This document shows, in pieces, positions 2,670 to 62,393 of a stretch of 64,000 bases of DNA. A program made the position numbers and the translations under genes. A model generated the notes under the pieces. The model was given only the letters and a program-made list of their open reading frames with translations. It ran no database searches and was not told where the DNA came from. This DNA comes from Neoroseomonas soli (GTDB taxonomy: Bacteria > Pseudomonadota > Alphaproteobacteria > Acetobacterales > Acetobacteraceae), in the NCBI RefSeq assembly GCF_018129065.1, contig NZ_JAAEDM010000014.1:1-64000 (forward strand), in the 5' to 3' direction. The stretch's first letter is position 1. The number at the start of each line of letters is the position of its first letter.

Positions 2670-3863
2670 ATGACATCTCCCACCCCCGACGAGGAGGCCG
2701 GCAGCAGCCGCGCCGGGATGCGCCGCGTCCTGGCCATGTACGGGCCCGCGGTCTTCGCCGGCGCCCTCGCCACCCGCGCCACCGACCCCGTGGTCGCCGA
2801 GATCGCCGGCGATTTCGGCACCACCGCGGCGCATGCGGCGCTGCTCGGCACCGCCTACACCCTGCCCTTCGCCTTCGTGCAGCCCATCCTCGGCCCGGTC
2901 GCCGACGCCGTCGGCAAGCGTCGGATCGTGACCATCTGCGTCTGCCTGCTCTCGTTGATGCTGGCCGCCTCGGCGGTCGCGGCCTCGCTCGGTTGGCTGA
3001 TGGTCTTCCGCGCACTCTCCGGCGCGGCGGCGGGGGGCATGATGCCGCTGACGCTCGCCATCATGGCCGACGCCGTGCCGCTGAAGGACCGCCAAGTGGC
3101 GCTGTCCCGCATGCTGGTCTTCGGCATCAGCGGGCAGATCGCCGGCGGGGCCATCGCCGGGCCGGTCGCCGCCATCGCCGGCTGGCGCGGCATGATCGTG
3201 CTCTGCGCCGTCGCCGCGGTCGTCGGCGCGGTGGCCCTGATTGCGGCAAGCCGCAGCGCGCCCGCAGAGCCGCGCACGCGCTACGACCCGGTGGTCGCCG
3301 CCAGACGCTACCGCAGCATCCTGGCAAACCCCTCCGCCATCCCGCTCTATGCCACCGTCGCGGTGGAAGGCGGGCTGGTCTTCGGCTCCTTCCCCTTCCT
3401 CGCGCCGCTGCTGATCGAGCGCGGCATCGGCGGCACGACCGAGGCGGGCCTCGCCATCGGGGCCTTCGGCGCCGGCGGGCTGGCCTATGCCGCCATGGCC
3501 CGGCCGCTGCTGGTCCGCTTCGGGCCGGCAAATGTCGTGCGGCTCGGCGGCGTGCTCGGCTGCGCGGCGCTGCTGGGCTTCGCCGTGGCGCCGGCGCTCT
3601 GGGTGGCGGTGGCGGCGGGGTTCCTGCTCGGCAACGCCTTCTACATGATCCACAACGCGATCCAGACGCGGGCTACCGAACTTTCCCCTCAATTCCGCGG
3701 CAGCGCGGTGTCGCTCCACGCCTTCTCCTTCTTCACCGGGCAGTCGCTCGGACCGGTGACCTTCGGGCTTGGGGCGGCGACGGTCGGGCTGGGGGTCTCG
3801 CTGGGGGCGGCGGCACTCCTCCTGCTGCTGCTCGCCTGGCTGCTTGCGAGGCGGCCAGCGTGA
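2670..3863 (+). CDS. MFS transporter (drug/metabolite efflux type)
   Basis: 397 residues with about twelve hydrophobic segments, the length of a 12-TM major facilitator. The loop 2-3 signature GPVADAVGKRR sits at 75-85, the hallmark of DHA-type antiporters, and the central loop after TM6 is charged. The substrate cannot be inferred. The frame is open further upstream, but hydrophobicity begins only after residue 20 and the first 267 bases look non-coding, so ATG 2670 is preferred; ATG 2718 is an alternative. Its stop is followed by 220 bp of non-coding DNA and repeat A1. Confidence 0.88.
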   Translation: MTSPTPDEEAGSSRAGMRRVLAMYGPAVFAGALATRATDPVVAEIAGDFGTTAAHAALLGTAYTLPFAFVQPILGPVADAVGKRRIVTICVCLLSLMLAASAVAASLGWLMVFRALSGAAAGGMMPLTLAIMADAVPLKDRQVALSRMLVFGISGQIAGGAIAGPVAAIAGWRGMIVLCAVAAVVGAVALIAASRSAPAEPRTRYDPVVAARRYRSILANPSAIPLYATVAVEGGLVFGSFPFLAPLLIERGIGGTTEAGLAIGAFGAGGLAYAAMARPLLVRFGPANVVRLGGVLGCAALLGFAVAPALWVAVAAGFLLGNAFYMIHNAIQTRATELSPQFRGSAVSLHAFSFFTGQSLGPVTFGLGAATVGLGVSLGAAALLLLLLAWLLARRPA

Positions 3864-4085
3864 CGCTTCCGGCTCGATCTGGAACAGAAGGTGATTCCGG
3901 ATCGCGCGGCGGAAATCGCACGGCAAGCGGAATCAGAGGCTTGGCCCGAGTCGCGCGAACGAATCGCTGACATCGCAGGGCCGATTCGCAGAATTGGCGG
4001 AAATCAAGAGGTTGTGGTGCCTCGAATACAATAGGCACCAGGGCGTTCGTGGTCTGTGCGCGGGGGACACCCGGGTCGCGGCGCC
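3864..4085. other. intergenic stretch with a small hairpin
   Basis: 222 bp between the MFS stop and repeat A1, lower in GC than its surroundings. It contains an 8-bp stem TGGTGCCT/AGGCACCA (4015-4022, 4033-4040) with an AT-rich 10-nt loop. No gene or strong promoter is seen. It could be degraded mobile DNA. Confidence 0.4.
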
Positions 4086-4220
4086 GGGGGGAGAAGGGAA
4101 CTTCTCCCCCCGCACCCCCCTCAACCTTCTTTGGCTATTGGGAACTGACCGCAGGGGGCGGCACCCGGTACTCAAGGAAGGGAGGGGGTTCGGGGGAGGT
4201 TCATCCTCCCCCGACCTTCA
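4086..4220 (-). repeat. family A intergenic element, copy A1 (full length, inverted)
   Basis: Read on the minus strand it matches A2 and A4: hairpin TCGGGGGAGG/CCTCCCCCGA (4190-4199, 4205-4214), central imperfect stem, then hairpin GGGGGGAGAAG/CTTCTCCCCCC (4086-4096, 4101-4111). The stop codon of the DUF1674 gene (4218-4220) is part of the conserved end TGAAGGTCGGGGG. It lies between convergent genes. Confidence 0.85.
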
Positions 4221-4373
4221 GAAATCGCTCACCCGCCCTTTTCGTTCCCAATCCCCGAAACGCGTCGGCTCCGGCCCGCTCGGCCCGCCGATCTCCTTCG
4301 GCTTCGGCGGCGGTTCCGGCTTCGGTTCCGGCTTGGGGGCGGGCGGCGGGTCGTTGTTTATGGTCTCGGTCAT
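4218..4373 (-). CDS. DUF1674 / succinate dehydrogenase assembly factor 4 family protein
   Basis: Small protein with a Pro/Lys/Glu-rich N-terminal half and the conserved C-terminus KEIGGPSGPEPTRFGDWERK followed by GRVSDF, the signature of DUF1674/SDHAF4. In eukaryotes SDHAF4 binds flavinylated SdhA during complex II assembly; the bacterial role is inferred by homology. I chose the ATG at 4373 (51 aa). An in-frame ATG at 4412 would extend it to 64 aa and would overlap the htpX ATG within one CATG. No clear Shine-Dalgarno separates the choices. The stop codon is embedded in repeat A1. Confidence 0.85.
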   Translation of the reverse strand: MTETINNDPPPAPKPEPKPEPPPKPKEIGGPSGPEPTRFGDWERKGRVSDF

Positions 4374-4410
4374 GGCCATCGTGATGTAGGGCGACGACGA
4401 GGGTTTGGAC

Positions 4411-5346
4411 ATGGGCGGCTATCTGAAGACGGTCGTGCTCCTGGCGGCGATGACGGCGCTGTTCGGGGGGCTCGGCCTCGCCATTGCGGGGCAGCAGGGG
4501 ATGGTGCTGGCCCTGCTCTTCGCCGGGGCGATGAACCTCTTCGCCTGGTGGAACAGCGACCGGATGGTCCTGCGCATGCACAACGCGCAGCCGATCGGGC
4601 CCCAGGACGCGCCGCGCCTCTATGAGATCACGGCGCAACTCGCGCAGCGCGCCGGACTGCCCATGCCGGCGCTCTATGTCATCCACGAGGAGCAGCCCAA
4701 CGCCTTCGCCACCGGCCGCAGCCCCTCCAGCGCCGCGGTCGCCGTGAACACCGGCCTGCTCGACCTGATGCCGGAGGAGGAGGTGGCTGGCGTCATCGCC
4801 CATGAACTCACGCATATCCGCCACCGCGACACGCTCATCATGACGGTGACGGCGACGGTCGCCGGCGCGATCTCGATGCTGGCGAATTTCGGCATGTTCT
4901 TCGGGGGCGCGAACCGCGACCGGAACCAGAGCCCCTTCGGCCCGATCGCCATGCTGCTGATGCTGATCCTGGCACCGCTCGCCGCCGCGGTGGTGCAGAT
5001 GGCGATCAGCCGGAGCCGCGAATACGAGGCCGACCGCGGCGCGGCCGAGATCACCGGCAACCCGCTTGCCCTCGCCTCGGGGCTCATGCGGCTCGAGAAC
5101 TACGCCCACGGCATCCAGAACCAGGGGGCCGAGGCGAACCCGGCCTCGGCCCACATGTTCATCATCAACCCGCTGAGCGGGGCGCGGATGGACAACCTCT
5201 TCTCGACGCATCCGAGCACCGCGAACCGCGTCGCGGCGCTGCAGCGACTGGCCGCGGAGATGGGCCAGGCCGGCGGTGGCGGCTGGTCCACGCCTGCGCC
5301 GCAACCCGGCGGCACCTGGGGGCGGAACCGCAATCCCTGGGGCTAG
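4411..5346 (+). CDS. htpX: HtpX-type zinc metalloprotease (M48)
   Basis: Membrane-bound M48B protease of the cytoplasmic-membrane quality-control system. 311 residues, with two N-terminal hydrophobic segments, HELTH at 131-135 (zinc ligands and general base), two further hydrophobic stretches, and the third-ligand motif SREYEADR. The C-terminal tail is Gly/Pro-rich. ATG 4411 follows GAGGG with a 7-nt spacer; a TTG at 4405 is in frame but worse placed. It is divergent from the DUF1674 gene with almost no intergenic DNA, so any promoter must lie inside that gene. A very stable hairpin follows the stop. Confidence 0.95.
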
Positions 5347-5462
5347 TGTCCTGCCCGCTTCGTTCGCTGGATTTCCAGCGAACGAAGCGGGCAAGCAAGC
5401 CACTGAAAACAAAGGCTAGTGGCCTGAGAACGAAGTCCACAGGATTTCGGAATCAGGACACT
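5345..5462. repeat. MITE-like element bounded by 9-bp inverted repeats
   Basis: AGTGTCCTG at 5345-5353 and its exact reverse complement at 5454-5462 enclose 118 bp that contain the long hairpin at 5353-5392. No coding capacity for a transposase. The left end overlaps the htpX stop codon. Confidence 0.4.
5353..5392. terminator. perfect 19-bp hairpin after htpX
   Basis: Arms 5353-5371 and 5374-5392 are exact reverse complements (19 bp, 2-nt TT loop), starting 7 nt after the htpX TAG. No T-tract follows. It probably blocks or processes read-through from htpX; it may also be the core of a palindromic mobile element. Confidence 0.6.
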
Positions 5463-11195: not shown

Positions 11196-12509
11196 ATGAC
11201 CATCACCGATGACATGGGCAACGCGCTGAGCGGGGCGAGCCCGGCGGCCCGCGACGCCTACGCGCAGGCAAGCGCGGAGTTCCGCATCTATTGCGGCGAC
11301 CCGCTCGCCACCGCGCAGCGCGCGGTCGAGGACAGCCCTGAATTCGTCATGGGCCATGCGCTGATCGCCTGGCTCAACCTGCTCGGCACCGAGCCCGCCG
11401 GCACGCCCGCGGCGCGGGAGGCGATCGCAGCGGCGCGCCGGCTGCCGATGACGGCGCAGGAACGGGGTCACGTCGCCGCCCTCTCCCACCTGGCGGAGGG
11501 CGACTGGTGGGCGGCCTCCCGCACCATCGAGGACGTCGCCATCGCGCATCCGCGCGACTTCCTGGCGTTGCAGTGCGGCCACCAGATCGACTTCTTCACC
11601 GGCCATGCCCGCATGCTGCGCGACCGCATCGCCCGCGCGCTGCCGGCCTGGAAGCCCGGCATGCCCGGCTACCACGCTATGCTGTCCATGCACGCCTTCG
11701 GCCTCGAGGAGATGGGCGACTATGCCGCCGCCGAGGCCGCCGGCCGCCGTGCAGTGGAACTGGAACCACGCGACGGTTGGGGCCAGCACGCGGTCGCCCA
11801 TGTGCTCGAGATGCAGAACCGTGTCGAGGACGGCATCGCCTGGATGCGCGCCAATCCGACGGCCTGGTCCACCGATTCCTTCTTCGCCGTGCACAATTGG
11901 TGGCACCTCGCGCTCTATCACCTCGAACGCGGGGAGATCGCGGAGGTTCTCGCGCTCTACGACGGGCCGGTGAAGGGCGGCCAGAGCAGCGTGGTACTGG
12001 AACTGATAGACGCCACCGCGATGCTGTGGCGCCTGCACCTGCGCGGCGTGGAGCTCGGCGAGCGCTGGCAATCCGTGGCCGACCGGTGGGAGACGGTGGG
12101 CGGCGCCGGGTCCTACGCCTTCAACGACTGGCATGCGGCGATGGCCTTTCTCGGCGCGAACCGCCCCGGCGCGCTGGAAGCGCTGATCGAGGCCGCGACG
12201 CGCGCCGCATCGGGCGCCGGCGACAACGCGATGTTCACGCGCGAGGTCGGGCTGCCGCTGATCCGCGGCGTGAAGGCCTTCGCGGAGGGCGACCACAGGA
12301 TGGCGACACAGCGCCTGCGCGCGGCGCGCAACATCGCGCACCGCTTCGGTGGCAGCCACGCACAGCGCGACCTGATCGACCTGACGCTGATCGAGGCGGC
12401 GCTGCGCGGCGGGGAGACGGCGTTGGGGGAGGCACTGGTGGCGGAACGGCAGGCGATCAGGCCGCATTCGCCGGTGGTGCTGGATTTCGTGCGACGGATG
12501 GCGGCGTGA
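11196..12509 (+). CDS. TPR protein, TTC38-like family (paralogue 1)
   Basis: 437 residues, almost entirely helical tetratricopeptide-type repeats, with no signal peptide or catalytic motif. Recognisable blocks are AHPRDFLALQ, GDYAAAEAAGRRAVELEPRD, AVAHVLEMQNRVEDG and HLERGEIAEVLALYD. It resembles eukaryotic TTC38 and bacterial relatives of unknown function, probably scaffold or binding proteins. AGGAGG precedes ATG 11196 by 6 nt. A second, clearly homologous gene lies at 53499-54842. The stop TGA forms the first bases of repeat A2. Confidence 0.85.
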   Translation: MTITDDMGNALSGASPAARDAYAQASAEFRIYCGDPLATAQRAVEDSPEFVMGHALIAWLNLLGTEPAGTPAAREAIAAARRLPMTAQERGHVAALSHLAEGDWWAASRTIEDVAIAHPRDFLALQCGHQIDFFTGHARMLRDRIARALPAWKPGMPGYHAMLSMHAFGLEEMGDYAAAEAAGRRAVELEPRDGWGQHAVAHVLEMQNRVEDGIAWMRANPTAWSTDSFFAVHNWWHLALYHLERGEIAEVLALYDGPVKGGQSSVVLELIDATAMLWRLHLRGVELGERWQSVADRWETVGGAGSYAFNDWHAAMAFLGANRPGALEALIEAATRAASGAGDNAMFTREVGLPLIRGVKAFAEGDHRMATQRLRAARNIAHRFGGSHAQRDLIDLTLIEAALRGGETALGEALVAERQAIRPHSPVVLDFVRRMAA

Positions 12510-12640
12510 AGGTCGGGGGAGGAGAACCTCCCCCGATCCCCCTCCCTTCTTTGTCTTTTGGTGCCGAACCCCGGCGGTGCGGCGCCAGATGCCAAAGAAG
12601 GTTGAGGGGGGTCCGGGGGGAGAAGTTCTCTTCTCCCCCC
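12507..12640 (+). repeat. family A intergenic element, copy A2 (full length)
   Basis: Left hairpin TCGGGGGAGG/CCTCCCCCGA at 12513-12522 and 12527-12536, imperfect central stem, right hairpin GGGGGGAGAAG/CTTCTCCCCCC at 12615-12625 and 12630-12640. It starts with the TPR stop TGA and ends 4 nt before the ABC ATPase stop (TTA at 12645), so it fills the whole gap between two convergent genes. Confidence 0.88.
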
Positions 12641-12644
12641 GCCC

Positions 12645-13703
12645 TTACTCGACCACCGCCACCTGCCTCGGATCGATCACGAGCCACACCTTCCGACCGA
12701 CCTCATGTGCGTCGAGCGGCGCGGCCGCCGCCCGCAGCTTCAGGTTCGTCCCGTTCGGCCGCACCACGTAGTCCCAGGATTCGCCCAGATAGGTGCGCTC
12801 GGTGATGGTCGCCTCCAACGTCAGGCCGTCGCCGGCAGGCGGTGCGTCGTGGATCGTCATCGCCTGCGGCCGCAGCGATATGAGCGCCGGCCCGTCGCGC
12901 AGCCCAGCCTGTCCCGCCGGGCCGAGACTGACGCCGTCCAGCACCAGGATGCCGCCCTCGATGCGGGCCTCCAGCAGGTTGGTGCGCCCGACGAAGCCGG
13001 CGACGAAACGCGTGCGCGGGCGGGTGTAGAGAAGATGCGGCGCATCCACCTGCTCGATCCGTCCGGCGTTCATCACCGCGATCCGGTCGGAGGTCGCCAT
13101 GGCCTCCGCCTGGTCGTGGGTGACGTAGACGGTGGTGATGCGGAACTCATCGTGCAGGCGGCGGATCTCGAAGCGCATCTCCTCGCGCAGGTTGGCGTCG
13201 AGGTTGGACAACGGCTCGTCCAGCAGCAGGACGGAGGGCTTCACGACGATGGCGCGGGCGAGCGCCACGCGCTGCTGCTGGCCGCCGGAAAGCTCGGCCG
13301 GGTAGCGGTGGGCGAGCTTGTCGAGTTTCACCACGCCCAGCATCTCGGCGACCCGGCGCTTCACTTCTTCCCGCGGCAGCTTGCGGAGCTTCAGGCCGAA
13401 GGCGACGTTCTCCTCCACCGTCATGTTCGGCCAGATGGCATAGGACTGGAAGATCATGGACATGCCGCGGCGTTCGGGCGGCACGACCGCGCCGGGGGCC
13501 GACAGCGCCGAGCCGTCCACCGCGATGGTGCCGCCGGTGGGGTCCACGAACCCCGCGATCATGCGCAGCGTCGTGGTCTTGCCGCAGCCGGAGGGGCCGA
13601 GGAGGGAGACGAACTCCCCTTCCTCCAGCGTCAGGTCCACCTTGTCCACCACGGTCAGTCGGCCATAGGCCTTGGTCAGGCCGGAAAGCACCAGGCGCGG
13701 CAC
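12645..13703 (-). CDS. ABC transporter ATP-binding protein (ferric iron/polyamine type)
   Basis: 352 residues, ATPase of an importer. Walker A GPSGCGKT is at 36-43, signature LSGGQQQR and Walker B VLLLDEPLSNLD are intact, and the H-loop is in YVTHDQAEA. A C-terminal TOBE-like regulatory domain follows residue 240. The sequence is closest in style to FbpC/AfuC and PotA ATPases. Start GTG 13703 has GGAGGG 6 nt upstream. It is the last gene of the three-gene transport operon and is separated from the permease by 1 bp. Its stop abuts repeat A2. Confidence 0.93.
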   Translation of the reverse strand: MPRLVLSGLTKAYGRLTVVDKVDLTLEEGEFVSLLGPSGCGKTTTLRMIAGFVDPTGGTIAVDGSALSAPGAVVPPERRGMSMIFQSYAIWPNMTVEENVAFGLKLRKLPREEVKRRVAEMLGVVKLDKLAHRYPAELSGGQQQRVALARAIVVKPSVLLLDEPLSNLDANLREEMRFEIRRLHDEFRITTVYVTHDQAEAMATSDRIAVMNAGRIEQVDAPHLLYTRPRTRFVAGFVGRTNLLEARIEGGILVLDGVSLGPAGQAGLRDGPALISLRPQAMTIHDAPPAGDGLTLEATITERTYLGESWDYVVRPNGTNLKLRAAAAPLDAHEVGRKVWLVIDPRQVAVVE

Positions 13704-27933: not shown

Positions 27934-28953
27934 ATGCTTCGCAGGCACCTTCTCGCCGCCACCGCCGCCGGGCTCGCCGTGCCCGCCACGCTCCGCGCAC
28001 AGGGCGCCTGGCGCCCGGAACGGCCGGTGACGCTGATCGTTCCCTGGGCCGCCGGCGGCTCGACCGACCAGATGGCGCGCATCGTCGCCGCGGAGATCGA
28101 AGGCCCGCTCGGCCAGCGCGTGGTGGTGGTGAACCAGCCCGGCGCCTCGGGCTCCATCGGCACGCGCAATGCGCTGGAAGCGGCGAAGGACGGCCTGACC
28201 TGGGCCGCCGGCGCGGCGGTGGACGTGGGCTGCTACAAGGTGCTCGGGCTGCTCGATACGCAGCTTGCCGACTGGCACCTCTTCTTCGCCGTGGCCAACG
28301 TGAACGTGCTGGTGGCCAACCCGCAATCCGGCTTCCGCGACTTCGGCCAGGCGCTCGATGCGCTGAAGACCCGTGGCCAGGGCATCGGCGTCGCCACCGC
28401 CGGCGTCTCCTCGGCCGGGCACAACATGATGGAGGCGCTGCGCGCCGCCTCGCCCTTCCAGTACCGGCACGCCACCTATGACGGCGGCAACCCCGCCATG
28501 ATCGCGACCGTCTCGGGCGAGACGCCGCTCGGTGCCATGCTGCTGGTGGAAGCGGCCGAGATGATCCGCGCGCGCCGGCTGGTCCCGCTCGCCGCGCAGG
28601 CCGAGAACCCGGTGACACTCGCCGCGCAGGGCAACGCGCCGGCGATCGAGATCCCCTCGGTCCGCCGCTGGCTCCCGGACATCCCCGCGCCGCTCAACTA
28701 CTTCGGCATCTGGGCGCCGAAGGGCGTGCCCCAGAACGTCGTGCAGACCATGACGGGGCTGTGGGAGAGCACGATCAGGAACTCCCAGCGCCTGAAGGAC
28801 TACGCGAATTCCCGCGCCGCGCTGTTCACGCCGGTCCACGGCCAGCAGGCACACGACGAGGCGTGGAAGATGGTCCGCCAGACCGCCTGGCTCTACTTCG
28901 ACGGCGGCAAGGCGCGCGTCTCGCCCGATACGCTCGGGATCGCCCGGCTTTGA
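27934..28953 (+). CDS. tripartite tricarboxylate transporter substrate-binding protein (Bug/TctC)
   Basis: 339 residues. The signal peptide contains a twin-arginine pair (MLRRHLLAATAAGLAVPATLRAQ, mature start near 24). The Bug signature RPVTLIVPWAAGGSTDQMAR lies directly after it, and the second Bug loop ASGSIGTRNALEAA is present. It binds a carboxylate in the periplasm and hands it to TctAB. It is complete with its membrane genes downstream (TTGA overlap with tctB), so this is a working transporter rather than an orphan receptor. Confidence 0.93.
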   Translation: MLRRHLLAATAAGLAVPATLRAQGAWRPERPVTLIVPWAAGGSTDQMARIVAAEIEGPLGQRVVVVNQPGASGSIGTRNALEAAKDGLTWAAGAAVDVGCYKVLGLLDTQLADWHLFFAVANVNVLVANPQSGFRDFGQALDALKTRGQGIGVATAGVSSAGHNMMEALRAASPFQYRHATYDGGNPAMIATVSGETPLGAMLLVEAAEMIRARRLVPLAAQAENPVTLAAQGNAPAIEIPSVRRWLPDIPAPLNYFGIWAPKGVPQNVVQTMTGLWESTIRNSQRLKDYANSRAALFTPVHGQQAHDEAWKMVRQTAWLYFDGGKARVSPDTLGIARL

Positions 28954-33016: not shown

Positions 33017-33910
33017 ATGCCGGCTCCTCTCGTCATCTGCCTCGGCAACGTCGTTGCCGACCACACCTTCCGCGTCGAGGACATTCCGCAGCCGCCGGCC
33101 AAGATCCCGGCGCGCTCCTACAGCATCGGTCCCGGCGGCATGGCCGCGAATGCGGCGATCGCCGTGGTGCGCCTGGGCGGCCGGGCCGCCTTCTGGGGAC
33201 GCGTGGGAGACGACCTGAACGGCGACCCGCTGGCCGAGGCACTCGAAGCCGAGGGCGTGGACGTGGCCGGCCTGCGCCGCGTGCCGGGCGGTCGCACGCC
33301 AGTCGGCGCCGTGCTGGTGGACCTGCGCGGGGAGCGGACGATCATCTCCTTCCGCGGTTCCGGCCTCGGTACCGATCCCGCCTGGCTGCCGCTGGACCAA
33401 CTGCGGGAAGCCGGGGCGCTGTGCTGCGATCCGCGCTGGCCGGAAGGCGTGGCGGCGGCAGCGGCGGCGGCGCGCGCGGCCGGCGTGCCCGTGGTGCTGG
33501 ACGGCGAACGCAGCGAGACCCGCATCCTGGTGGACCTGGTGCCGCGGGTGGACCACGCGGTCTTCTCGGTGCCGGGCATCGCCAACTACGCGCCGGGCTG
33601 CTCGGCGGAGGAAGGGCTGCGGCGGGCGCTCGCCTCCGGCCCCGTGCGCGTCGCGGCGGTGACGCAGGGGGAAAAGGGCACGCTCTGGATGGCGGCCGGC
33701 GACCAGAAGCCGACCCGCACGCCGGCCTTCCCGGTCGAGGCGACCAACACCACCGGCGCTGGCGACGTGTTCCACGGCGCCTATGCGCTGGCCATGGCGG
33801 AAGGGATGGACGTGCCGGCGGCGATGCGCTTCGCCTCGGCGGCCGGGGCGCTGCGGGCGCGGGACGGGGCGACGCCGACGCGGGAGATGGTGGACGGGTT
33901 GCTCGGTTGA
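33017..33910 (+). CDS. PfkB family carbohydrate kinase
   Basis: 297 residues, ribokinase fold: N-terminal VICLGNVVADHTFRV, substrate-site GPGGMAANAAIAVVRLGG, and C-terminal anion-hole/catalytic motif NTTGAGDVFHGAYAL, where the Asp is the catalytic base. The sugar is not determinable; VVADH and SIGPGGMAANA are of the ribokinase/sulfofructose kinase type. ATG 33017 is used because an upstream ATG (32975) adds a non-conserved leader. The stop TGA is the first triplet of repeat A3. Confidence 0.9.
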   Translation: MPAPLVICLGNVVADHTFRVEDIPQPPAKIPARSYSIGPGGMAANAAIAVVRLGGRAAFWGRVGDDLNGDPLAEALEAEGVDVAGLRRVPGGRTPVGAVLVDLRGERTIISFRGSGLGTDPAWLPLDQLREAGALCCDPRWPEGVAAAAAAARAAGVPVVLDGERSETRILVDLVPRVDHAVFSVPGIANYAPGCSAEEGLRRALASGPVRVAAVTQGEKGTLWMAAGDQKPTRTPAFPVEATNTTGAGDVFHGAYALAMAEGMDVPAAMRFASAAGALRARDGATPTREMVDGLLG

Positions 33911-33995
33911 AGGTCGGGGGAGGGGAACCTCCCCCGATCCCCCTCCCTTCCTTGTCTTCTTGGAGACTGACTTCCGCGGTCAGGTCCCGAAGGCT
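33908..33995 (+). repeat. family A intergenic element, copy A3 (left half plus diverged core)
   Basis: Starts with the kinase stop TGA and the conserved AAGGTCGGGGG; hairpin TCGGGGGAGG/CCTCCCCCGA at 33914-33923 and 33928-33937, then the CCCTCCCTTCCTTGTCTTCTTGG central arm. The right-hand hairpin is missing and is replaced by a different palindrome (34011-34040). Confidence 0.75.
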
Positions 33996-44355: not shown

Positions 44356-45324
44356 ATGATCACCCGCCGCCACCTCGCGGGGCTCGTTGCCCTGCCCGCC
44401 CTCGCCCGCCCGTCCCTCGCGCAGGAACAATGGCCGAGCCGTCCCGTCACGCTGGTGGTGCCCTGGGCCGCGGGCGGTTCGACCGACGCGGTGGCGCGCA
44501 TCCTGGCGCAGCGGCTGTCCCAGGACACCGGCCGCAGCTTCGTGGTGGACAACCGCACCGGCGCCAACGGCACGATCGGCTTCAACAGCGTCGCGCGCGC
44601 GCGGCCGGACGGCGCGACGCTGCTGGTCAGCACCGTCAGCACCTACGCCATGGCGCCCTGGCTCTACCAACTGCCCTACGACAACGAGCGCGACTTCGTC
44701 GGCATCGGGCTGCTCGCCGCCATGCCGATCATCATGGTGGTGAACAAGGATTTCCCGGCGCGCACGCTGGCCGAGTTCGTCGAGATGGCGCGCCGCCCCG
44801 ACCACCGCATCACCTATGCCAATTCGGGCATCGGCTCGTCCACGCATCTCGCCACCGAGCTCTTCCTGCAGGAAGCGCGGCTGACCATCCCCGATGTCGG
44901 CTACCGCGGCGGCGCGCCAGCGGTGCAGGCGGTGATCGCCAACGAGACGCCGATGGTCTTCCAGGCCGCCTCCGGCATCCTGCCGCACATCCAGGCGGGA
45001 ACGCTGCGCGCGCTCGGCGTCACCTCGCGCGAGCGCAGCCCCCTCGTGCCCGAGATCCCGACCTTCGCCGAGCAGGGCTTCCCCGGCGCGGTGGTGGAGG
45101 AGCAGATCGCCCTCCAGGGCCCCGCCGGCCTGCCGCCCGAGATCATCCGCCGCGCCCATGAGGCGGCGCGCGCGGCGATCGAGGCGCAGGACACGCGCCA
45201 GCGCCTGGCGACACTCGCGGTGGTGCCGGCGGTAGGTTCGCCGGACGAGTGGCCCACCTATTTCGCCGCCGAGAACGCCAAGTGGCGGGACGTCATCCGC
45301 GCCCGCAACATCCGCGTGCAGTAG
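44356..45324 (+). CDS. Bug/TctC family tripartite tricarboxylate transporter receptor (orphan)
   Basis: 322 residues. The signal peptide contains TRRHLAGLVALPALARPSLAQ with a twin-arginine; Bug signature RPVTLVVPWAAGGSTDAVAR and NRTGANGTIG follow. No TctA/B genes adjoin it, so this is one of the solitary receptors that are abundant in Acetobacteraceae and Burkholderiales. GGGAGA precedes ATG 44356. A strong hairpin ends the unit 8 bp past the stop. Confidence 0.92.
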   Translation: MITRRHLAGLVALPALARPSLAQEQWPSRPVTLVVPWAAGGSTDAVARILAQRLSQDTGRSFVVDNRTGANGTIGFNSVARARPDGATLLVSTVSTYAMAPWLYQLPYDNERDFVGIGLLAAMPIIMVVNKDFPARTLAEFVEMARRPDHRITYANSGIGSSTHLATELFLQEARLTIPDVGYRGGAPAVQAVIANETPMVFQAASGILPHIQAGTLRALGVTSRERSPLVPEIPTFAEQGFPGAVVEEQIALQGPAGLPPEIIRRAHEAARAAIEAQDTRQRLATLAVVPAVGSPDEWPTYFAAENAKWRDVIRARNIRVQ

Positions 45325-51574: not shown

Positions 51575-51735
51575 GGAAGGGCGCTGCCCCTTCGGGCCAC
51601 CCCGCCAAAGGCCGAATGGCCTTTGGAAGCCGATACCTGGCGCCCGGGCCGCCCCTGTCCCGCCCCGAAAACAGGGTCCCAAGCGCCTTTCGGCGCTTGG
51701 TGCGTAGGGGACAAGGCCCCCTTCTGCGGCGCCCG
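51575..51735. repeat. family B intergenic element, copy B2 (hairpin array)
   Basis: Three or more hairpins in series: GAAGGGC/GCCCCTTC (51576-51593, bulged), CCAAAGGCC/GGCCTTTGG (51605-51626) and CCAAGCGCC/GGCGCTTGG (51679-51700), plus a weaker pair. It reaches almost to the purH stop (51741). Probable terminator region for purH and a REP-like mobile unit. Confidence 0.7.
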
Positions 51736-51740
51736 GCGCA

Positions 51741-53318
51741 TCAGTGCCTGAAATGCCGCATCCCGGTGAAGACCATCGCGAGCCCTGCCTTGTCGGCCGC
51801 CGCGATCACCTCGGCATCGCGGATCGACCCGCCGGGCTGGATCACCGCCGTGGCGCCGGCCGAAGCCGCGATCTCGAGCCCATCGGCAAAGGGGAAGAAG
51901 GCGTCGGAAGCGACGACCGAACCCTCGGCCAGCGGGCGCTCGAGGCCAGCCGCCTTGGCCGCCGCCTCGGACTTCCAGGCGGCAATGCGGCTGCTCTCGG
52001 CGCGGTTCATCTGGCCGGCGCCGATGCCGGTCGTGGCGAGGCCCTTGGCGTAGACGATCGCATTCGACTTCACATGCTTGCAGACGCGGAAGGCGAAGAG
52101 CAGGTCGGCCATCTCGGCACGCGAGGGCGCGCGCTGGGTGACGACCTTCAGCGTCTCCTGCGTCACCCGCCCCGCATCGCGCGACTGCGCGAGGAAGCCG
52201 CCAGCAACCGACTTGAAGGCGAGGCCCGCCGCCGCCGCATCCGGCAGACCGCCGGTCAGCAGCAGGCGCAGGTTCTTCTTCTTCGCGAAGACGGCCTTTG
52301 CGGCCTCGTCCGCATCCGGGGCGATCACCACCTCGGTGAAGATGGCGGTGATCTTCTCCGCCGCCGCGGCGTCCAGCGTCCGGTTCGCCGCGACGATGCC
52401 GCCGAAGGCCGAGACGGGGTCGCAGAGCAGCGCCGCATCCCAGGCCTTGGAGAGGTCGCCCGCCACCGCGACGCCGCAGGGATTGGCGTGCTTGACGATG
52501 ACGATGGCCGGCTTGTCGAACTCCGCGACGCATTCATAGGCGGCGTCGGTGTCGTTCAGGTTGTTGTAGGACAGTTCCTTGCCCTGCACCTGCGTCGCGG
52601 TGGCGATGCCAGGGCGGTTGCCGCCATCCACGTAGAAGGCCGCCTTCTGGTGCGGGTTCTCGCCATAGCGCAGGCCCTGGCGCAGCACGCCGGGCAGCGA
52701 CAGGCGCGGCGGGAAGTCCTGGCCTTCCTGCTTCGCGAACCAGCCGGAGATGGCCGCGTCATAGGCAGCCGTACGGGCATAGGCCGCGGCGGCGAGGCGG
52801 CGACGGGTGGCGAGGGTGGTGCCCCCCTTGGCCTCGATCTCGGCCTGGATTTCGGCGAAGTGCTGGGGCTCGGTCAGCACCGCGACGCCGGCGTGGTTCT
52901 TGGCCGCGCTGCGGATCATCGCCGGGCCGCCGATGTCGATGTTCTCGATGCAGTCTTCGAAGCCGGCGCCCTTCGCGACCGTCGCCTCGAAGGGGTAGAG
53001 GTTCACCGCCACCAGGTCGATCGGCGCGATGGCGTGCTGTTCCATCTGCGCCAGGTGCTCCGGCAGGTCGCGGCGACCGAGGATGCCGCCATGGACCTGC
53101 GGCACCAGCGTCTTGACCCGCCCGTCCAGGATCTCCGGGAAGCCCGTGTGGTCCGACACGTCCTTCACCGGCACCCCGGCCTCACGCAGCGCCTTGGCGG
53201 TGCCGCCGGTGGACAGGATCTCGACCCCCCGCGCGGCAAGGAATCGGCCGAATTCGATCAAGCCCGTCTTGTCGGAGACGGAAAGAAGGGCGCGGCGGAT
53301 GGGGAGGAGGTCGCTCAT
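51741..53318 (-). CDS. purH: bifunctional AICAR formyltransferase/IMP cyclohydrolase
   Basis: Last two steps of IMP synthesis. 525 residues: N-terminal MGS-like cyclohydrolase domain ([52 protein letters not shown]) and C-terminal transformylase ([25 protein letters not shown] with the catalytic His, [30 protein letters not shown]). The full family length is present. ATG 53318 follows GGAGG. It is set apart from its neighbours by repeats on both sides. Confidence 0.97.
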
Positions 53319-53498: not shown

Positions 53499-54842
53499 TC
53501 AGTGCCGAATGCCCCCCGCCGCCTCCGCATACCCCACCCGCCGTTCCGGCGGCACCGGATGCCGCCCGGCCACGCGTTCCAGCAGCATCCGCGCATCCTC
53601 CTGCATGCCCCCCTTCATCGCGGCATCGAGGAACAATTGTTCCAGCACGTCCTGCTGCGCATGGCTGCCGCCCATGCGGTGCATCACGCCGACGGCCGGC
53701 CGCATGGCTTCCACCGCGCGGACGTGGTCACCCTGAGCGTGGGCGAGAACGGCCTCGCAGACCGGGATCGCCGCGTCGCGCAGGATCGCGGCGACGGTGA
53801 CGGGCTGTGTCGCGGCCTCGCGCATCGCGTCCAGCATGCGCGCCGCGGCCTGGGTGCGGCCGGTGGCGGCCAGCGCCATCATCCAGTGCGGCAGGGTAAA
53901 GGTGGAGATGCAGTCGCCGATCCGCGCCTCGGCCTTGTCGGCGAGTTCGATCCAGCGATCTCCGACATCGACGCCATGCCGCTGCAGCCGGAACAGCATC
54001 GAGGCCGCGTTCTGCACGTCGATGTAGAGGTCCGGCATCGCCTGGGTCAGCGCGCTCGCGTGGTTGCGGAAGCCGCGATCGTAGAGGGCCAGGACCTCCG
54101 CGTGCTCGCCGCGTTCCATGTGATACATGGCGCGATGCCACCAGAGGTGATGCAGCAGGTTCGATCCGCCGTCCCAGTGCTGCTCCAGCGCCTTGAGCCA
54201 GACGATGCCCTCCCCGCGCCGGCCCTGCATTTCCAGGATGTGCGCGACGCCGTGCGTGGCCCAGAGGTCGCCGGGATCGAGGGCGACCGCGGCGCGGCCG
54301 GCCTCCTCCGCCACGGTGTAATTGCCGCATTCCTCGTTGGCGAAGCAGCGGCAGGCAAGGATGCTGCCAAAGCCGGGGATGGCGGCCGACCAGCGCGGGG
54401 CGACGGCATCCACCGCGCGCAGCATCTGCCCCGCGCGGCCGAGCCAGAAGGCGCAGAAATGGTGCAACCGGAAGGCGAGGATGTCGTGCGGGTGCGCCGC
54501 CATGATGCCTTCCCAGGCGGCGAGCGCGCGGTCCATCTCGCCACCGGCCCAGAAGGCGAGCGCGGCGGCGTGGGCGCGCTCGCGATCGGTGCCGGCGAGG
54601 CGCGCGGCGGCGGCCGGGGCTTCCTTCGCGCGCGGCACCATGGCGGCATTATAGGTCAGCATGGCAAAGGCGCCCTTGAGCACCAGCGCCATCGGCATTT
54701 CCGCATCGAGGTCGAGCAGCGCCTTCAGCCGCACCCCGGCATCGGCGCGATACTTCAGATAGCCCTCGACGGTGTTGTCGAAGGCCGAGGCGGCCGCGTC
54801 CGAGGCGGCGGTGACGGCGAGTCCCTGGGCGTCCTGCGGCAT
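53499..54842 (-). CDS. TPR protein, TTC38-like family (paralogue 2)
   Basis: 447 residues of helical repeats, no signal peptide. Blocks HPHDILAFRLHHFCAFWLGR, NYTVAEEAGRAAVALDPGDL, GVAHILEMQGRRGEGIVWLK and HMERGEHAEVLALYDRGF align with the gene at 11196-12509; the C-terminus (MHRMGGSHAQQDVLEQLFLD) also matches its HRFGGSHAQRDL block. Function unknown. The stop lies 9 bp from repeat A4, as the other copy's stop lies inside repeat A2. Confidence 0.86.
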   Translation of the reverse strand: MPQDAQGLAVTAASDAAASAFDNTVEGYLKYRADAGVRLKALLDLDAEMPMALVLKGAFAMLTYNAAMVPRAKEAPAAAARLAGTDRERAHAAALAFWAGGEMDRALAAWEGIMAAHPHDILAFRLHHFCAFWLGRAGQMLRAVDAVAPRWSAAIPGFGSILACRCFANEECGNYTVAEEAGRAAVALDPGDLWATHGVAHILEMQGRRGEGIVWLKALEQHWDGGSNLLHHLWWHRAMYHMERGEHAEVLALYDRGFRNHASALTQAMPDLYIDVQNAASMLFRLQRHGVDVGDRWIELADKAEARIGDCISTFTLPHWMMALAATGRTQAAARMLDAMREAATQPVTVAAILRDAAIPVCEAVLAHAQGDHVRAVEAMRPAVGVMHRMGGSHAQQDVLEQLFLDAAMKGGMQEDARMLLERVAGRHPVPPERRVGYAEAAGGIRH

Positions 54843-57059: not shown

Positions 57060-57467
57060 TCAGCTCGGCTGGCACACCAGCGTCGCGGTCATGGTGGCGC
57101 AGAGCCTCTCGCCCTGCGGGCCGGCGCAGAAGATGTCCGCACGCGCCACGCTCAGCAGCTTGCCGGCGCGGATCACCTCCGCCCGTGCCACCGCGTCGCC
57201 ATCGGCTGGGCGCAGCAGGTTCAGCTTGAACTCGGCCGTCAGGACGTTCGCGCCTTCGGGCATCAGGGTATAGGCGGCGAAGCCGCAGGCGGTGTCGGCG
57301 AGCGTGGTGAGCGCGCCCGCATGCAGGAAGCCGTTCTGCTGCGTCAGCGCCGCGCGCAGCGGCAGGTGCAGCGCGCAGCGTCCTGGCGCGACCTCGCCCA
57401 GCGAGATGCCGAGATGCGCCATCATGGGCTGGGCGGCGAAGATGCTGGCGATGCGTTCCACCGGCAT
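57060..57467 (-). CDS. PaaI family thioesterase (hotdog fold)
   Basis: 135 residues, single hotdog domain. The active-site loop QQNGFLHAGALTTLADTACG has the conserved Asn, His and Gly and the Asp on the central helix. Hydrolyses acyl-CoA thioesters; chain preference unknown. ATG 57467. It lies downstream of ubiE on the same strand, separated by half-repeat A5, in the place usually held by ubiB. Confidence 0.9.
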   Translation of the reverse strand: MPVERIASIFAAQPMMAHLGISLGEVAPGRCALHLPLRAALTQQNGFLHAGALTTLADTACGFAAYTLMPEGANVLTAEFKLNLLRPADGDAVARAEVIRAGKLLSVARADIFCAGPQGERLCATMTATLVCQPS

Positions 57468-57472
57468 GCGGA

Positions 57473-57550
57473 TGTCCCCCCGCTGTCAGTCCCCAGAAAC
57501 CAAAGAAGGTTGAGGGGGGGGTGTGGGGGGAGAAGGTCCCTTCTCCCCCC
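57473..57550 (+). repeat. family A intergenic element, copy A5 (right half)
   Basis: Contains the core CCCCCGCTGTCAGTCCCC and CAAAGAAGGTTGAGGGGG arm of A4 and the right hairpin GGGGGGAGAAG/CTTCTCCCCCC (57525-57535, 57540-57550); the left hairpin is absent. It ends 5 bp before the ubiE stop. Confidence 0.75.
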
Positions 57551-57555
57551 ACCGC

Positions 57556-58305
57556 TCACAGCCGCCACCCCGTATGGATCGCGACAATCCCGCCGGAGAG
57601 GTTGCGGACTTCCACCCGTTCCATCCCCGCCTTGCGCATCATCCCCGCCAGCGTCTCCTGGTCGGGGAACATGCGGATGCTCTCGGCGAGGTATTCGTAG
57701 GACTCCCGGTCCTTCGCCACCTTCTCCCCGATCGCCGGCAGCGCCTTGAAGGACCAGGCATCGTAGAGCGGCACCAGGGCCGAGATTTCCAGCCGCGAGA
57801 ACTCCAGGCAGTGGAACCGCCCGCCCGGGCGCAGCACGCGCCGGGCCTCCCGCAGCACCGCATCCTTGTCGGTGCAGTTGCGCAGGCCGAAGGCGATCGA
57901 GACCTTCTCCACGCTGCAATCGGGCAGCGGAATATGCTCGGCGTCCACGCACATGAAGGACAGGCCGGCGGCGAGGCCGCGGTCCAGCGCCCGCTTTTCC
58001 GCCACCGCCAGCATGGCAGGGTTGATGTCGGTGAGGATGGCGCGCCCCGCGCCGCGCTCCAGCGCGAGGAAGGAGATGTCCCCCGTCCCGCCCGCGAGGT
58101 CGAGCAGCGTCTCGCGCGCGGAACACCCGATCGCGTTGACGAAGATGCGCTTCCATACCCGATGGATGCCGAGCGACATCAGGTCGTTCATCACGTCGTA
58201 GCGCGGGGCCACGCTTTCGAAGACCTCGCGGACCATCCCGGCCTTGTCGGCGCGGGGCACGGTGCGGAAGCCGAAATCGGCGCTGTCCTGGGGGCTGTCG
58301 CTCAT
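57556..58305 (-). CDS. ubiE: ubiquinone/menaquinone biosynthesis methyltransferase
   Basis: C-methylation of the quinone ring using SAM. 249 residues with the UbiE signatures [29 protein letters not shown] (motif I) and [12 protein letters not shown]; the C-terminus has [17 protein letters not shown], then [10 protein letters not shown]. The length and motifs are normal. It is divergent from mutM, as in many alphaproteobacteria. Confidence 0.97.
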
Positions 58306-62259: not shown

Positions 62260-62393
62260 GAGGGGGCTTTGCCCCCTCAAGCTCCCCCACCAGGGGACAC
62301 GGTCCCCTGGGCCCGCGGATACCCGACTATCGGTTTCCAAAGGCCTTTCGGCCTTTGGCGGGGAGAGTTTGAGAGGGGCAGAGCCCCTCTCAA
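62260..62393. repeat. family B intergenic element, copy B3 (four hairpins between dnaA and dnaN)
   Basis: GAGGGGGC/GCCCCCTC (62260-62278), CCAGGGGAC/GTCCCCTGG (62290-62310), CCAAAGGCC/GGCCTTTGG (62337-62358) and TTGAGAGGGGC/GCCCCTCTCAA (62369-62393), each with a 3-4-nt loop. The last two recur in B1. The array would impede read-through from dnaA into dnaN. Confidence 0.8.

Follow-up and report, generated by a model that had tools for sequence, protein, structure and literature searches.

A probable REPIN-like palindromic repeat seated behind stop codons in RAYT-less genomes of Neoroseomonas

Between two convergent genes of Neoroseomonas soli, and abutting the stop codons of both, lies a GC-rich sequence that folds into a hairpin, a long stem and a second hairpin, which raises the question of what kind of element it is and how it came to be seated at gene ends. 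The element (A2) is one of five copies, three full and two half, in the 64,000-nucleotide stretch of DNA analysed here, which will be named hereafter the window:

12507..12641, + strand: full element A2, between a convergent gene pair whose stops both abut it
12507..12509, + strand: left stop TGA of A2, the first triplet of TGAAGGTCGGGGG; the left gene ends at 12509
12513..12536, + strand: hairpin 1 of A2, GGGGGAGG-AGAA-CCTCCCCC plus two closing pairs (fold; helix 1 of the covariation test)
12537..12612, + strand: central stem of A2, CCCCCTCCCTTCTTTG ... CAAAGAAGGTTGAGGGGGG, with a variable middle (fold; helix 2 of the covariation test)
12614..12641, + strand: hairpin 2 of A2, CGGGGGGAGAAG-TTCT-CTTCTCCCCCCG, whose loop reads NGAA on the − strand (fold; helix 5 of the covariation test)
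12645..12647, − strand: right stop of A2, TTA, that is, the TAA of the ABC-transporter gene at 12645-13703
4085..4220, − strand: full element A1, between two + strand genes and away from a stop codon
53358..53491, + strand: full element A3, between two − strand genes
33908..33995, + strand: left half of the element (A4), at the stop of a PfkB-family gene
57473..57550, + strand: right half of the element (A5), with the stop of a UbiE-family gene on one side and the start of the next − strand gene on the other

The recurrence of one unit at these five places, proposed in an initial annotation of the window, is thus confirmed. A full element measures about 135 bp and consists, from the outer end inward, of a GAAGG tag, hairpin 1 (GGGGGAGG-NGAA-CCTCCCCC), a long and imperfect central stem whose middle varies, and hairpin 2 (CGGGGGGAGAAG-TTCN-CTTCTCCCCCCG) followed by CCTTC-like letters. 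Since the order of the parts is identical from both outer sides, the element is an inverted dimer of a unit of ~65 bp, in which an outer AAG(G) tag precedes a GC-rich, NGAA-looped hairpin and one arm of the central stem. The two ends are inverted and similar (GAAGG and CCTTC), varying between copies, and in several copies of the closest relative (e.g. L078) the central stem is almost perfect through the middle. Across 71 Neoroseomonas copies taken from the N. soli genome (G000) and from N. eburnea (G003), the loop has the NGAA form in 139 of 142 hairpins and AAG occurs in the tag region of 110 of 142. No coding capacity was seen in the element. The full units fold far better than shuffled sequence, with z-scores of −8.2 for A2 (−7.7 on its other strand), −5.4 for A1 and −7.6 for A3, and none of 200 shuffles folding as well, whereas the half units fold weakly (z of −2.0 and −2.4, with 8 and 6 of 200 shuffles as good). 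No Rfam family matched at its gathering score anywhere in the window, and membership of a known Rfam family was therefore rejected.

Genes in the window were called from GC content by codon position together with Pfam, not with a trained gene finder. Around A2, the + strand gene ending in TGA and the − strand ABC-transporter gene ending in TTA are truly convergent. The genes around A4 are also convergent; the PfkB-family kinase ends in TGA at 33908 and the opposing stop (34078) lies ~80 nt from the half unit. At A5 the genes are in tandem on the − strand, the stop (57556) of the UbiE-family gene (57556-58305) lying 5 nt beyond the half unit and the next gene occupying 57060-57467. The short distance of 4-9 bp to the opposing or next stop, which had been noted for A2, A4 and A5, therefore holds at A5 but not at A4. 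Likewise, the full copies A1, A2 and A3 had all been placed between convergent genes, with a stop codon as the first triplet of the conserved sequence, and both statements apply to A2 but not to the other two. A1 lies between + strand genes (2718-3863 and 4411-5346), with the nearest stop 221 nt away, and is an exception to the seat described below; the − strand ORF (4201-5412) that apparently ends in its TGAAGG has a non-coding composition (GC3 of 0.65) and no Pfam match. A3 has CCAAGG instead of TGAAGG and lies 7 nt from the end of a − strand gene (53499-54842) and about 40 nt from the start of another, the AICARFT/IMPCHase gene (51741-53318). The stop-first pattern holds for A2 and A4. The sites of A1 and A3 are also filled in N. 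eburnea (copies L189 and L164, respectively).

A BLAST search with A2 returned 50 pieces in the N. soli genome. A covariance model built from 28 copies (R1) listed 142 matches there, many of them the two strands of one palindrome, and merging these by hand left at least 90 distinct places, a lower bound because 150 of 2809 candidates were scored. Half of these places (45 of 90) hold near-full copies of at least 90 bits, and the weakest (~34-45 bits) are partial or degenerate. The genome-wide model search proposed at the outset has thus yielded many further copies, and the element shares two features of REPs and REPINs, namely short extragenic palindromes in high copy number and an inverted doublet folding into a hairpin, here two similar half units in inverted arrangement.

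The seat at gene ends was upheld on the genome scale. Among 81 stops measured beside copies, 59 end within −3 to +7 nt of the model edge and 70 within −20 to +10 nt; for random points in 35 element-free gaps of the window, a small null drawn from one window, 9.9% fall within 10 nt of a stop. Gene orientation, judged from GC by codon position, could be called at 65 of the 90 sites (25 were uncallable), of which 39 are tandem, 25 convergent and 1 divergent, against 40, 10 and 10 gene pairs, respectively, in the window, pairs with copies included. Divergent pairs are thus rarer at copies (1/65 vs 10/60, Fisher p = 0.003) and convergent pairs commoner (25/65 vs 10/60, p = 0.009). In tandem pairs either end of the element faces the stop about equally often (23 vs 21), and start codons mostly follow 3-30 nt behind the copy. 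The 45 near-full copies comprise 26 tandem, 10 convergent, 1 divergent and 8 uncalled sites. Beside them very few other bases remain: the median number of non-element bases is 15 nt at 24 tandem sites, compared with 61 nt in tandem gaps of the window (58 nt without the 88-nt gap of the half copy A5, which that figure includes), and −6 nt at 10 convergent sites, compared with 53 nt, the negative value reflecting model edges that overlap stops. The tandem comparison gives p = 4.5e-7 without overlapping gene pairs and is weak with them (two-sided p = 0.02). That is, a near-full copy amounts to roughly the whole intergenic region.

Comparison with sister species revealed that the presence of the element varies at orthologous sites. 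The ABC-transporter gene beside A2 was followed in 18 rows, including its own copy, with the site filled in 4, half-filled in 1 and without the element in 13. In 9 of these 13 the last codons of the other neighbour identify it as the gene found there in G011, whose site is filled. At 8 of these 9 sites the genes lie only a few bases apart (4 nt between the stops in G018), and in G030 other sequence with another palindrome stands between them. The N. soli copy L059 is absent in G011, where 36 nt stand in its place, and the N. eburnea copies L172 and L193 are absent in N. soli, where the genes read as an ATGA stop/start overlap. The initial annotation had held that a scarcity of further copies and a lack of empty orthologous sites would speak against a mobile repeat; with at least 90 copies, and with empty sites in G011, G018 and N. 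soli, among others, neither was encountered. Presence across the genus is patchy, with matches in 17 of 34 other genomes, two of them (G005 and G007) by a single match of ~30 bits each.

Some copies appear on their way to disappearing. In the collapsed copies L222 (N. eburnea, at the site of L032) and L226 (G028, at the site of L051), a single hybrid hairpin remains, which opens with the first arm of hairpin 1 and closes with the second arm of hairpin 2. Decay of another kind could have produced half copies such as A4 and A5, and some of the empty sites could be losses. The orthologous copies L227 (N. eburnea) and L240 (G011) are enlarged in the middle by more than 100 bp, indicating that the centre of the element tolerates insertions. 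Element presence thus differs between sister species, for which spread of the copies by insertion would be the simplest reading.

Copies also coincide with breaks in gene order. When 38 N. eburnea copies were compared with the 90 N. soli places, 21 had both flanks in common, 7 had one and 8 had none, and 2 joined the flanks of two different N. soli copies. One copy (L182) was moved from the one-flank to the both-flank class after closer comparison revealed a shared site (G000 C125). Where one flank is shared, the other was found 2.8 kb away on the same N. soli contig (L078), elsewhere in the genome with no element in the 560 bases examined (L090, L163 and L176), as a weak match (L162) or without a useful match (L192). 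The no-flank class includes the empty sites of L172 and L193, a partial element (L188), three sites that hold longer other sequence in N. soli (L166, L169 and L177) and two with one flank only (L160 and L161).

The two joining copies, L174 and L168, are reciprocal. In N. soli the arrangements are C81-left/copy/C81-right and C115-left/copy/C115-right; in N. eburnea they are C81-left/copy/C115-left (L174) and C115-right/copy/C81-right (L168). The rearranged flanks are each 86-88% alike and start within ~65 nt of the copy. Moreover, the type of hairpin facing the flank is kept, by strand reading, at the three readable flanks, as predicted by a crossover between two copies. The N. soli copies at these joins are partial (48.5 and 72.1 bits), and the main caveat is a possible assembly error. 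A2, too, has the appearance of a join: in N. eburnea one copy lies beside the left gene and another beside the right gene, at different places, and the partner genes of those two copies have no element visible beside them in N. soli.

At 18 shared sites, orthologous copies are 81.3% alike, compared with 77.4% for unrelated copies, and their middles 65.3% compared with 63.6%, while the flanks are 80-93% alike and 16 of 17 sites agree in orientation. The site is thus kept while the sequence of the element turns over, either by exchange between copies or by repeated insertion, the latter being possible at one and the same site since orthologous copies are barely more alike than unrelated ones. 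The right flank of another copy, L055 (just behind G000:C139:3335), contains ~100 bp matching many places in N. eburnea, and because of these many matches it is probably another dispersed repeat adjoining a copy.

Ordinary REPs are mobilised by RAYT transposases. The RAYT domain (Y1_Tnp, PF01797) is absent from the N. soli genome and from 34 of the 35 genomes of the genus, including all 18 with element matches; the one genome that has it (G027) shows no element match. None of the 13 genomes of other genera with element matches contains it either, and the same search matched 5 of 14 control genomes. Because PF01797 is absent from all 31 element-bearing genomes searched, which include few of the 47 genomes matched by the second model described below, a RAYT-driven REP was rejected. 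Furthermore, the consensus outer end is GAAGG and not the GTAG or CGTC that stands beside the palindrome of REPs.

REPINs are inverted REP doublets that form hairpins and are tied to RAYTs (PMC3116915). They resemble the present element as high-copy inverted dimers of a hairpin unit located between genes, with remnant-like half copies; they differ from it in their RAYT, for which we found no counterpart in the 31 genomes, and in the tag, here AAG(G) rather than GTAG or CGTC, and the element here differs in its three-part layout with a long central stem and in its seat right behind stops. A survey of GTAG- and CGTC-tagged REPs (PMC3733652) reports that REPs favour convergent and tandem intergenic regions downstream of genes, a seat similar to that described here for an element with another tag and NGAA loops, and that CGTC repeats are missing in Acetobacteraceae. 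It also reports that GTAG ends often supply the stop TAG, so that the overlap with a stop codon is not in itself new. Among the best matches of a literature search that left most subscription journals outside, no description of such repeats in Roseomonas, Neoroseomonas or Acetobacteraceae was found, and the element seems to be a mobile repeat of gene ends of a type not described before, without the usual helper gene. Of the original proposal that it spreads as a REP/MITE-like element, the dispersed repeat with empty sites has stood, whereas neither the RAYT of a strict REP nor the target duplication expected of a MITE was seen: the element is a REPIN-like mobile repeat lacking the RAYT and tag of REPs and REPINs as well as that duplication.

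We consider it likely, on these grounds, that the element is a RAYT-less, non-autonomous palindromic repeat of REPIN-like type, composed of two inverted ~65-bp units, which is present or absent between sister species, shrinks, recombines and is kept at gene ends, with a presumed role in the RNA. Genome comparison shows its copies shrinking by deletion between their own repeats and recombining with one another, and most of them endure at places where they close the gap immediately after a stop codon, as the distances given above bear out; they would be moved by something other than a recognisable RAYT. Whichever strand is read, a transcript of the upstream gene has a very stable hairpin immediately after its stop. 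The most likely effect would be protection or insulation of that mRNA at its 3′ end, or a slowing of ribosomes or RNA polymerase at that point.

An account in which the copies are purely selfish, functionless DNA, tolerated where they are and selected against at other landing places, is possible though not probable. Empty sites, half copies, collapsed copies and the patchy distribution across the genus would all be expected from such DNA. Mere tolerance, on the other hand, predicts seats in proportion to gap length, whereas the near-full copies leave very few other bases between the genes, and the seat at the stop recurs in other genera with different stem sequences.

The proposal that the two hairpins serve as terminators, one for each strand, has fared less well. 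Dedicated bidirectional terminators, in which either hairpin would halt the RNA polymerase that arrives from its own side and which would be kept as useful between convergent genes, could account for the excess of convergent sites, for the equal use of both ends in tandem pairs and for GC-rich hairpins, the first mark of an intrinsic terminator, that are very stable and whose pairing is kept. In a covariation alignment of 76 rows (71 copies, 5 of them also read on the opposite strand), pairing is kept in 97.8% of pair cells, and 18 pairs have double changes, compared with 7.9 ± 1.5 in shuffled and 4-8 in slid controls, in an alignment that leans towards structure since it was fitted to the model. 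At the 18 orthologous sites, pair cells comprise 14 double-kept, 17 single-kept, 25 broken and 598 unchanged, that is, broken pairs outnumber doubly changed ones, and the paired changes could also stem from palindrome-perfecting template switching instead of selection on the RNA. No U-run directly follows the hairpin in the aligned Neoroseomonas copies, and a scan of the surroundings of A2 (11500-13700, both strands) gave no terminator-like site, so that a canonical terminator was rejected at A2. In addition, tandem genes flank 26 of the 37 near-full copies with a callable orientation, and a strong terminator there would deprive the following gene of transcription. The start codons 3-30 nt behind copies leave little room for a promoter, none of which was found around A2. 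In copies of other genera a T-rich stretch (ATTCTTTTATTTTTG) follows hairpin 1 at a distance of some bases, so that termination may still occur there. Some terminator function is thus possible; that the copies are dedicated bidirectional terminators seems unlikely.

We are similarly doubtful that the copies are hairpins acting on translation termination, in which a stem a few nucleotides after the stop would slow termination or trigger rescue and so lower the output of the upstream gene. The stem of A2 begins at the fourth base behind the stop, within the footprint of the terminating ribosome, where such slowing or rescue could take place, and the spacing between stop and stem is tight both in Neoroseomonas and in other genera. 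In E. coli, according to PMC12306157, a REP at a distance of less than 16 nt from a stop down-regulates translation and causes ribosomes to stall; 446 of 4,072 predicted REPs (~11%) lie within 15 nt of a stop, and an earlier study cited there proposed that 260 of 496 act in translation. These REPs resemble the element in being hairpins at most 15 nt behind a stop with proposed effects on translation and mRNA stability; their ~11% contrasts with the 70 of 81 stops within −20 to +10 nt found here, although the measures differ, ours referring to callable stops beside copies. Against this account, it would mean that very many genes are damped.

A MITE is expected to be flanked by a target-site duplication. 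A MITE of an ordinary DDE-type insertion sequence would fit the inverted ends, small size, high copy number and lack of visible coding capacity but is very unlikely, as stop and start contexts at 35 tandem sites gave no duplication signal (3.86, compared with 3.79 ± 0.15 for shuffled pairs, 693 of 2000 shuffles being as high) and a slight search by eye for a parental element sharing these ends was negative, none of the frames obtained for four of the six intervals between neighbouring copies (L152, L122, L206 and L211; L123 and L120 gave no frames) being transposase-like. Two ATGA overlaps do appear doubled (at the sites of L172 and L193), but both genes need those letters. The bacterial MITEs ERIC, RUP and NEMIS, as named in PMC3733652, are similar to the element in size, palindromic folding and dispersal and differ from it in these same two respects, the target duplication signal and a known parental insertion sequence.

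Should the RAYT-less, REPIN-like reading hold, REPIN-like dispersal would be possible without RAYT, and many mRNA ends in several genera of one family would be shaped by a repeat that has escaped recognition. Sister species would provide natural pairs of the same genes with and without the element, in which the effect of a hairpin behind the stop is directly testable, and the copies, as markers of rearrangement points, may help to explain changes of gene order in this group.

Outside the genus, R1 matched 13 genomes of 8 other genera among 150 genomes of the family sampled, mostly below 76 bits, and the search applied to the 34 genus genomes gave no match in 24 genomes of other families. Twenty loci from six other genera have different stems, e.g. 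GGGGAAA-GGAA-TTTCCCC and CCCATTCTTTTATTTTTG. Nevertheless, a stop lies within −21 to +4 nt of the edge at 19 of these 20 (called without a confidence cut-off), 34 of their 40 hairpins have GAA-containing loops and 24 of 40 the AAG tag. A second model (R2), built from 12 of these loci from three genera, recovers the N. soli copies with E-values down to 7e-28 and matches 47 of 200 genomes and 30 of 102 genera of the family, many of these genomes with no more than one to three weak matches. When 289 genomes from across the class were sampled, a few of them from the family, matches were confined to the N. soli genome and to 5 single hits in other families, none above 25.1 bits. Twenty further loci from seven further genomes were chosen by R2 score and so represent better copies, not a random sample; they have a stop within −21 to +10 nt in 18 cases and no divergent pair, with the AAG tag in 33 of 40 hairpins and GGAA, TGAA or AGAA loops in 29 of 40.

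This recurrence of layout, NGAA loops and stop-codon seat, with stems that diverge between genera, would fit a kind of element common to the family. More tentatively, and with somewhat less than even confidence, we suggest a further REPIN-like class confined to Acetobacteraceae, marked by an AAG(G) tag and by hairpins with NGAA loops, moved by a non-RAYT enzyme and placed or kept at translation stops, its position being coupled to translation termination, in which stems diverge while loop, layout and seat stay. Some copies depart from the pattern: those of G061 (g28) have ATG loops in hairpin 1 and may represent another family, and those of g40 have AAGCA and GGTA loops.

In a scan of named genomes with a 19-letter pattern, the matches listed came mainly from Neoroseomonas and Roseomonas, with three from elsewhere. 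The one in Siccirubricoccus phaeus (L299) is a full copy scoring 142 bits that, judged by eye, follows the gene behind which L039 lies in N. soli, and those in Bradyrhizobium and Altererythrobacter had no covariance-model match. Together with L425 of genome G228, L299 has the Neoroseomonas sequence type in another genus, as if both had been carried over with neighbouring genes.

Other repeats were noticed in passing. In genome G224, a small perfect palindrome, TCGGACGTATACGTCCGA, occurs as a nested repeat inside or at the copies L419 and L421, behind the central stem. In the window, a 68-bp stretch is found at 28021-28088 and 44440-44507 with 81% identity, both times inside a called gene, and is probably paralogous coding sequence. 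A second palindromic repeat, CCCCGCCAAAGGCCGAATGGCCTTTGG..., stands at 51600-51635 and 62328-62363, the two being 94% complementary, and a sequence like it occupies the N. soli site at which N. eburnea carries the element copy L177.
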